Assembly (NCBI RefSeq): GCF_027625995.1 | Contig: NZ_CP115396.1 | Coordinates: 124,001 to 188,000, forward strand | Reading direction: 5' to 3' | DNA: 64,000 nt | Source: Hymenobacter yonginensis | GTDB lineage: Bacteria > Bacteroidota > Bacteroidia > Cytophagales > Hymenobacteraceae | Shown here: positions 22,110 to 25,167 of the stretch, piece after piece | Layout: each line of letters starts with the position of its first letter | Numbering within the stretch: position 1 is the stretch's first letter | Position numbers and translations under genes: made by a program | Notes under the pieces: generated by a model | What the model saw: only the letters and a program-made list of their open reading frames with translations | What the model was told of the DNA's origin: nothing | Databases searched by the model: none

Positions 22110-22119
22110 TATCCACTTC

Positions 22120-22168
22120 CCCAAAACTGAAACAGGGCACCCACCGGGTGCCCTGTTTCAGTTTTGGG
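22120..22168. terminator. Terminator with perfect 23-bp stem
   Basis: Arms 22120-22142 and 22146-22168 (CCCAAAACTGAAACAGGGCA...) are perfectly complementary around a 3-base loop. A-rich and T-rich outer stem ends make it bidirectional. Confidence 0.9.
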
Positions 22169-22268
22169 CGCTGGCACGAGTTTATCATAGCGTAACTCGT
22201 GACGACCCATATCATGAGGCTGTACCTTATCTGCCAGCACGATACTAAACGGGTGGCGTGTGATCTGT

Positions 22269-22351
22269 TTACCGCGTTGCGGCAGTGGAGGCACAGCCTC
22301 TACCTAATGGGCTGTCCATGAGTTACCCTTCGCTAAACTCGCGCCAGATGG
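22269..22351 (+). repeat. Direct repeat, copy 2, at the edge of the AT-rich island
   Basis: Partner of 21143-21225. Its last base lies within a few bases of the point where composition shifts to AT-rich, so it may mark the left edge of an insertion. Confidence 0.7.
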
Positions 22352-22400
22352 AGGCAAGTGGAGCCAGCTGAACCGAAAAGCTACAAGATAAAGTTTCCAC

Positions 22401-22408
22401 TAACTTTG
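22401..22408 (+). promoter_or_regulatory. Bacteroidetes -7 promoter box for the AT-rich two-gene island
   Basis: TAACTTTG matches TAnnTTTG exactly, 38 bases before the ATG at 22447. Confidence 0.65.
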
Positions 22409-22446
22409 AGAATAAATGTCAAAATAGTAACGATCGATCAGCAAAT

Positions 22447-23295
22447 ATGGCAAACTATTATGCCTTCAGGCTTATGCTATCTAAGCCAGCTCAAATGGAT
22501 GCATTTGAACAAGAGTTATCTAAGCGGCAGCTATTGGAGCTCGCAATTTCTAGGATAAACGAAAGTCGCCTATTTGCATTCAATGCTAAAGGTAAAAGAT
22601 ATTTGATTTATTATCAAATTGAAATAAATGCTGGTACATATGCTCTGCAAATAGCGCGTGAGGATATAGTTTTAGAGCCTAAAGCAGGAGAAACGGGAAT
22701 TACGAACCAACAGGATGTTATTTATCCATATAGTTATTTTATTGTAGATATTCCACGTCAAATATTATTGGTTCAAGAAAAATTTAGTTCTTTTAGGGAT
22801 GTTGATTCTATAGTCAGTAGAGTGAAGGATTTTTTTGAAAAGACACTAGAGGATCAAAGAGTAACTGTAGCTATTGATGCTATTAGTTATGCGGAATATA
22901 TCTGGACTGAAATTGAAAATGCTCAAGAATTATACTCTTTAGTACTGGACATAGATCCACCAAACTTCTTCGGGTCAAGGTTTAGAAGTAATATAGATAT
23001 TCGTGAAGCATACGAGGAAACTAACTTTACAAAATTTAAGTTAATACTCTCAAATAAGTTTGGTCAATTAAGATTGAGAAGAGAGGAATTTGAAGAAATT
23101 ATCAGAACTGTATCTTCCGGTGCTGGCAACTTTATCGTTAAATTACGTGATAGTTTAGGTAGAATAGTTAGTGTGGGAAATCACACTAGACCTAAAAGTG
23201 TAGAAATGCCGGAAGACCCTATTAACATCCCTCCAGATGTTCTTGAAGAAGAAATAGATCAAGCAGACAAATTGAACAATAACAGGCCGCTGTAG
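22447..23295 (+). CDS. AT-rich island protein 1: soluble, RexA-like in layout, unknown function
   Basis: Soluble protein of 282 aa that I cannot assign by sequence. It has no signal or membrane segment. An alternating strand/helix N-terminal half (YYQIEINAGTYALQI, YSYFIVDIPRQILLVQ, then helix VDSIVSRVKDFFEKTL) leads to a C-terminal half with FKLILSNKFGQLRLR and FIVKLRDSLGRIVSV, ending in an acidic tail (DVLEEEIDQ). By length, fold outline and pairing with a coupled 4-TM gene it resembles phage lambda RexA (279 aa), and less closely the Kiwa KwaB or DUF4747 proteins. This is an analogy, not demonstrated homology. G+C is about one third by eye against ~60% in neighbours, indicating transfer. 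The stop TAG shares its G with the GTG start of the next gene. Confidence 0.85.
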   Translation: MANYYAFRLMLSKPAQMDAFEQELSKRQLLELAISRINESRLFAFNAKGKRYLIYYQIEINAGTYALQIAREDIVLEPKAGETGITNQQDVIYPYSYFIVDIPRQILLVQEKFSSFRDVDSIVSRVKDFFEKTLEDQRVTVAIDAISYAEYIWTEIENAQELYSLVLDIDPPNFFGSRFRSNIDIREAYEETNFTKFKLILSNKFGQLRLRREEFEEIIRTVSSGAGNFIVKLRDSLGRIVSVGNHTRPKSVEMPEDPINIPPDVLEEEIDQADKLNNNRPL

Positions 23296-23819
23296 TGAAA
23301 AAAATGATTCAAAGCTTGGGGTTTATACTCTTCGGAGCCCTTTTTGCTTTGGGTGCCTTCGTGCTGGTGAATATACCTCAGATAAAATTCGCTGAAAGTG
23401 AGTTTCTCCTAGGGTATTTGGGTATATTTTTAGGCTTTGCTTTTTCTGTCGTGACATTTGTGATGACCCTCGTTGATAAGGGAAGGCAGAGGATTATAGA
23501 TGCTAAGAATTACACTGAAGATGAAAAAAAAGAAAGTAAGAGTAGAATGAGTATGCTTATTAGTGAGTTAGAGGATATAATGATATTCTTATTTACTTCC
23601 TTTGTCATAGTTGTATTTATAATGATTTGGGAAGTTGTTGATATTTCTTTTATAAAAATTCCAGAAAATATGTGGTATTCCAAGGTTAGATTGCTCAAGG
23701 CTGTCAAATTTTCTATTTTTGGCTGGAGCGTATATGGTATATATGATCTTTTGATAGCCGCATTTAAAGTGAATGAGAGAGTTGAAAAAATAATTGAGCG
23801 TACAGAAATCACCAAGTAG
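23295..23819 (+). CDS. AT-rich island protein 2: four-TM membrane protein, RexB-like in layout
   Basis: Membrane protein of 174 aa with four hydrophobic segments: about 7-24, 38-60, 93-115 and 137-157. A charged loop (61-92, rich in Lys, Glu and Ser) and a charged C-terminal tail (NERVEKIIERTEITK) are probably cytoplasmic. The GTG start at 23295 overlaps the upstream TAG by one base (TAGTG), a sign of translational coupling and fixed stoichiometry. A small 4-TM partner of a soluble protein is the layout of RexB or KwaA antiphage proteins, where membrane permeability or anchoring is the effector (inference). Composition is AT-rich like gene 1. The stop codon lies inside a 30-bp perfect palindrome arm. 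Confidence 0.88.
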   Translation: MKKMIQSLGFILFGALFALGAFVLVNIPQIKFAESEFLLGYLGIFLGFAFSVVTFVMTLVDKGRQRIIDAKNYTEDEKKESKSRMSMLISELEDIMIFLFTSFVIVVFIMIWEVVDISFIKIPENMWYSKVRLLKAVKFSIFGWSVYGIYDLLIAAFKVNERVEKIIERTEITK

Positions 23820-23891
23820 TCAATTAATCATTGAAAAACCCCGCGTTGGCCGTAAGGCTGGCGCGGGGTTTTTCAATGATTAATTGACTAC
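23816..23891. terminator. Perfect 30-bp inverted repeat, shared terminator
   Basis: Arms 23816-23845 and 23862-23891 are exact complements. The inner part AAAAACCCCGCG / CGCGGGGTTTTT is a bidirectional intrinsic terminator. The outer part (GTAGTCAATTAATCATTG) extends it and includes the stop codon of the upstream gene. It ends 10 bases from the icd stop. Confidence 0.93.
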
Positions 23892-23901
23892 TGCCAAGCT
23901 A

Positions 23902-25167
<1,266 letters not shown>

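Follow-up and report, generated by a model that had tools for sequence, protein, structure and literature searches.

What is the function of the two AT-rich genes that interrupt an otherwise G+C-rich stretch of Hymenobacter yonginensis DNA? We addressed this question in a window of 64,000 nucleotides (contig NZ_CP115396.1, positions 124,001 to 188,000), in which a preliminary description had singled out a pair of genes, here termed P1 and P2, with a layout like that of the phage-exclusion genes rexA and rexB of lambda. We consider it likely that the pair constitutes a two-component abortive-infection (exclusion) module working in the manner of lambda RexAB. This reading draws on the structure predicted for P1, on the recurrence of P1 relatives next to genes for small membrane proteins, and on the places in which those relatives lie.

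A two-gene islet of foreign composition

The AT-rich islet spans positions 22380..23819 (1440 bp, + strand) and has a G+C content of 34.4%, compared with 62.2% elsewhere in the window. The lowest 1440-bp stretch elsewhere in the window, away from the islet, contains at least 53.8% G+C, and the abrupt fall to about one third that had been noted by eye was therefore borne out. The genes themselves have G+C contents of 34.9% (P1) and 34.3% (P2), against 62.2% for the remaining window. G+C at third codon positions (GC3) is 25.9% for P1 and 36.2% for P2, in contrast to 87.4% for the neighboring icd gene. The foreign G+C content and the GC3 contrast support the earlier proposal that the islet was horizontally acquired.

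Both genes lie on the + strand and together fill the islet. P1 (22447..23295, start ATG) encodes a soluble protein of 282 amino acids (aa), in which hydropathy analysis revealed no hydrophobic segment, and is our proposed sensor. P2 (23295..23819), the proposed membrane effector, starts with GTG, with an alternative in-frame ATG 9 bases after it, and encodes 174 aa with four hydrophobic segments (residues 7-25, 42-60, 97-115 and 139-157). The two genes share one base (TAGTG), and the gene structure given in the preliminary description thus holds in full. Because the gene for a small membrane protein overlaps its partner here, and the pair is carried on prophages and islets, one might also think of a toxin-antitoxin-like addiction system that stabilizes mobile DNA, with P2 as the toxin and P1 as its control protein. 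We regard this as very improbable, given that the large gene for the soluble protein precedes the other and matches no antitoxin family, and that the fold of P1 and the restriction-modification (R-M) and FRG-domain contexts of its relatives (see below) suggest sensing.

Predicted fold of P1

Searches of Pfam, PADLOC, PHROGs and NCBIfam yielded no usable match for P1 or P2, and a Protein Data Bank (PDB) sequence search with P1 returned a single row with an E-value of 0.097. Neither RexA (PF15969) nor RexB (PF15968) was listed for P1 or P2 up to E 10 in Pfam; in the same search lambda RexA and RexB, used as positive controls, were detected at 1e-97 and 8.5e-92, respectively. No RexA (PF15969) was found in the two genomes that were searched for it. 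DUF4747 (PF15931), a family that the preliminary description had put forward for comparison, was not listed for P1 up to E 10 either; in 148 genomes DUF4747 gave one sub-threshold match, which contains stops. Several weak matches were set aside as chance, i.e., those of P1 to DegS (0.01) and rotavirus NS35 (0.035; 0.012 with the Hymenobacter siberiensis protein described below), of P2 to ApeA (0.0012, 15.5 bits), and of a distant relative from genome G715 to AbiO (3.6e-4, 17.4 bits).

As had been recommended, the predicted structure of P1 was compared with known structures using Foldseek. The best match was RdgC (2owl, 2owy), and the RexA fold (structure 8TWQ) was also found. Of known folds, the P1 prediction comes nearest to the RdgC/RexA group, and the likeness to RexAB, proposed at first for the layout of a soluble and a membrane protein, extends in the model to the fold of the soluble partner. 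Fold searches with P2 retrieved generic helix bundles only. Five uncharacterised phage proteins in BFVD (A0A8S5S8L2, A0A8S5MSR5, A0A8S5PCY0, A0A8S5QGP5 and A0A6J5Q1Z2) resemble the P1 model, each with an E-value of 2e-6 or better. Separately, positions 202-266 of the P1 profile gave a match to cyanovirin-N, with an E-value of 3.8e-6 against an engineered tandem and of 0.013 against a single domain of natural origin.

Relatives of P1 in phage lysogeny modules

A genome scan with P1 identified one relative, in H. siberiensis (67% over residues 1-270). In that genome the P1 gene is open, whereas an insertion that carries a transposase has split the P2 gene (L001 8872-10378) into remnants that are 63% and 56% identical to P2. 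An open P1 beside a broken P2 fits P2 as a costly effector, although this is one case and proves little.

P1 had no relative among annotated phages and, when used alone, none in IMG/VR. A tblastn search of a plasmid collection gave one distant match, in Escherichia coli CP099174 (27%, E 0.01; pairwise E 3e-14). There the next gene encodes a 154-aa protein, a closely similar IMG/VR copy of which has four segments. The record itself (CP099174.1, L002) is labelled plasmid, measures 1.31 Mb and is probably a piece of chromosome, because it carries icd, rluE and mnmA. The E. coli pair has matches in 41 of 5426 E. coli genomes, with at least 99% over at least 80% of the query in 32 and 60-80% over 34% in the other nine. 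Two loci of the former kind and two of the latter were inspected in addition to CP099174. The high-identity loci and CP099174 have the pair between the integrase and icd; the lower-identity loci have it on the opposite strand, with hok and ead/Ea22 on either side.

The E. coli P1 relative led to one phage record, a Vibrio element assigned to the Vinavirales and bearing PM2-like genes (42.5%), in which the gene after the P1 relative again encodes four segments. The same 11 IMG/VR contigs came up in each of three profile scans, and a scan with the R-M-associated group of relatives added one further contig. Amongst the 11 is a 39.9-kb contig with a P1 identical to that of genus genome G111; the gene order on this contig is Peptidase_S24/HTH repressor, P1, P2 and phage integrase. 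Phages that are unrelated to one another thus carry P1 relatives in their lysogeny modules.

The membrane partners share only 13-18% identity with the window P2. As the pairwise score of P2 against the E. coli partner was not significant (E 0.064), homology of P2 rests on position, size and topology; four segments are present in eight of the nine membrane partners of this relative group, and the Hymenobacter prophage partner has three. The tree has long branches and is compatible with one or two origins of the Hymenobacter copies.

A position beside repressor and integrase would also suit a phage regulator, with P1 biasing the lysis-lysogeny switch and defence being secondary or absent. For lambda RexA, such a bias in the absence of RexB is indeed reported (PMC11077077). 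We nevertheless find this role improbable, as distant relatives occur in R-M or abortive-infection loci and the window copy, with no recognised prophage around it and no recognised phage genes adjoining, is still open.

Distant relatives in defence islands

P1 matches were found in 3 of 120 genus genomes, 3 of 204 family genomes, 6 of 395 phylum genomes and 2 of 395 class genomes (the last two counts including G001), so that the gene is uncommon and its distribution patchy. The phylum scan contributed five further Bacteroidota relatives and the class scan a sixth. Homology to P1 was indicated by hhalign for the group comprising G218, G441, G270 and G486 (97.5%, E 4.9e-12) and for G715 (96.7%, E 3.9e-10 over 268 columns), and by the phylum scan for G484 (E 1.1e-21).

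The survey of homolog neighborhoods suggested in the preliminary description proved productive, in that P1 relatives occur in defence islands. By family match, the relative in G441 adjoins a type III restriction enzyme, that in G218 a type IIG enzyme and that in G486 a type I methyltransferase. The G715 relative lies between putAbiC and an MksE/DUF3584 operon, the G484 relative is in an islet of 30% G+C, and the G270 relative has an FRG partner only. The next gene is a small membrane-type open reading frame (ORF) in four of the six and encodes an FRG-domain protein in two (directly 3', L066 1699-2490 and L069 9640-10440); the FRG proteins match the PADLOC candidate PDC-S15. No profile similarity to P2 was detected in the membrane partners of the G218/G441/G270/G486 group or of G715.

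The two relatives with an FRG protein in place of the membrane partner might argue for reversed roles, with P1 as a toxic antiphage effector that P2 holds at the membrane until infection, a mode reported for gp30/gp31 of mycobacteriophage Butters (PMC12894663). We judge this arrangement unlikely. The P1 model has a fold known from DNA-binding proteins, its sequence matched no family of toxins or enzymes, and the single case of H. siberiensis, where P2 was the gene broken, suits P2 as the costly part.

Proposed mechanism

For an exclusion module of the RexAB kind, we infer a sequence of DNA binding, sensing, P2 activation and membrane damage that would end in phage defence. P1 is probably a dimeric DNA-binding protein of the RdgC fold. 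Its trigger would be phage DNA, an intermediate of replication, or a DNA-bound phage protein, and it would then activate P2. The latter, a small four-helix inner-membrane protein, would permeabilise the membrane and halt growth, and infection would fail as a result of the arrest. For a Pseudomonas putida pair identified through features of this kind, phage defence is reported, and overexpression of its soluble protein is said to arrest growth only when the membrane protein is present (PMC12894663).

More tentatively, and with a confidence that falls somewhat short of even, P1 could be part of a large superfamily, so far unrecognised, of infection sensors that have the RdgC fold and an exchangeable effector. 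Phages and chromosomal islets would pair the sensor with a small membrane protein, and other loci, among them a type I restriction locus, with an FRG-domain protein. If so, lambda RexAB would represent a single branch of a widespread immune platform of sensors and effectors, present in phages and hosts across phyla and kept in standing cargo hotspots such as the 3' end of Hymenobacter icd.

The icd 3' end and the borders of the islet

P1 and P2 converge with icd (23902-25167, - strand), with which they share a terminator. The window icd protein is 99.8% identical to those of two genomes of the H. siberiensis genus (G013 and G075), and close relatives with the same flanking genes carry other AT-rich cargo in the space downstream of icd. 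The icd loci with the best icd scores (30 of 120) were examined, and in 25 of these a 600-bp block of less than 48% G+C lies within 1.5 kb downstream of icd. Such a block was present in 4 of 103 control 1.5-kb segments from the window and eight Hymenobacter loci, these being drawn from any sites, convergent-gene intervals or not. The most likely origin of the window copy is as cargo of a phage or islet, and it now occupies a cargo hotspot at the icd 3' end.

The hotspot corresponds to 22110-23901 in the window and to the space downstream of icd in loci L081-L115, the cargo genes differing between loci. In one of these (L114 8879-10237, genome G052), cargo beside icd matches the PADLOC candidate PDC-S73 (E 1.1e-96 and 5.7e-38), the match being split over two ORFs in separate reading frames; two further icd-cargo proteins that were tested had no family match. 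The use of icd by e14-like E. coli prophages may be a coincidence with the Hymenobacter hotspot.

The -7 promoter element of Bacteroidota is TAnnTTTG. Inspection by eye upstream of P1 revealed TAACTTTG (22401..22408, + strand), which fits this consensus and may be such an element. No TTTG was seen by eye at the usual -33 spacing, so that only half of the host-type promoter described earlier was recovered. The terminator palindrome (23815..23892) is perfect as claimed, its arms (23815-23845 and 23862-23892) being 100% complementary, but they measure 31 bp rather than 30. It is an ordinary terminator, because 17 inverted repeats, some of them longer, were found in the window at one common setting; its use as an insertion mark was dropped for the same reason. 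To the left of the islet, two inverted copies of a REP-like motif (22173-22195, - strand; 22323-22345, + strand) may represent a border element. A 17-mer from this motif is present in 10 of 61 genus genomes, and of 30 icd loci, 3 have a 15-mer from it on the downstream side. At the corresponding place locus L111 has an IS200-like (Y1) transposase. An Rfam search returned transfer-messenger RNA (tmRNA) only.

Comparison with known systems

Kiwa, to which the pair had also been likened, couples a small membrane protein (KwaA) to a soluble protein of approximately 300 aa (KwaB). That P1-P2 might be Kiwa-like, with P2 as a KwaA-type protein of four segments and P1 as a DNA-binding protein of the KwaB type, appears extremely improbable. 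KwaB (PF16162) was not listed for P1 up to E 10 in Pfam or PADLOC, and hhalign scored 0.6% for P1 against KwaB and 0.2% for P2 against KwaA. KwaB was also absent from the rows listed for a VIA search, which has no bearing either way. Furthermore, the seven KwaB loci examined (from 7 of 148 genomes) have an ORF directly upstream of kwaB (144-206 aa in five, longer in two), which, judged by the length and position of these ORFs, is the opposite gene order to P1-P2. RdgC, the nearest fold to P1, is a recombination-associated protein that the passages on it in PMC11077077 describe without a membrane partner.

Lambda RexA/RexB, in contrast, resembles P1-P2 in that a gene for a soluble protein of about 280 aa precedes one for a small membrane protein with four segments. 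The RexA fold is shared by the P1 model, the spacing of the hydrophobic segments is similar to that of P2, and prophage relatives lie next to the repressor, the order on the 39.9-kb contig being like cI, rexA and rexB with an integrase after them. The systems differ in that no sequence similarity is detectable for either protein and in that the window copy lies outside a recognised prophage. CarolAnn gp44/gp43 and Sbash gp30/gp31 likewise combine a soluble with a four-segment membrane protein in lysogenically expressed defence (PMC6426606), and gp44 has been called Rex-like (PMC11077077, PMC6426606). However, gp44 has 370 aa and no profile similarity to P1 or P2, and Sbash is likened by description alone. 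RexABpp (PP_5643/PP_5644) of P. putida prophage 1, also compared by description, has a published HHpred link to RexA, whereas the thin profiles of P1 gave none. By hhalign, P1 scored 0.3% against both RexA and gp44, with no P2 signal against RexB or gp43; this negative comparison has no power, because RexA against gp44, both Rex-like in print, also scored 0.2%.

P1-P2 has the layout of RexAB-type systems (a soluble protein of approximately 280-370 aa, then a small four-segment membrane gene) and, in the model, the RexA/RdgC fold of their soluble protein; location in a lysogeny module applies to the prophage relatives and not to the window copy. Five RexAB-like systems have been described so far, according to PMC12894663. 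The lack of a match in four libraries agrees with the earlier suggestion of a new or very distant family, but RexAB-type systems are already a known kind, and P1-P2, which is outside the Pfam RexA and RexB families, is probably a distinct family within it. In a literature search limited to open-licence papers we recognised none on the P1/P2 sequence family, which is not proof that none exists. The activation of lambda RexAB is still unexplained some 70 years after its discovery (PMC12894663). A distinct family in E. coli prophages, a tailless-phage-like Vibrio element and Bacteroidota offers independent, easily cloned pairs that would allow the trigger and the membrane effector to be mapped, and the relatives with FRG partners, the more surprising extension of the RexAB kind, point to a modular sensor half.
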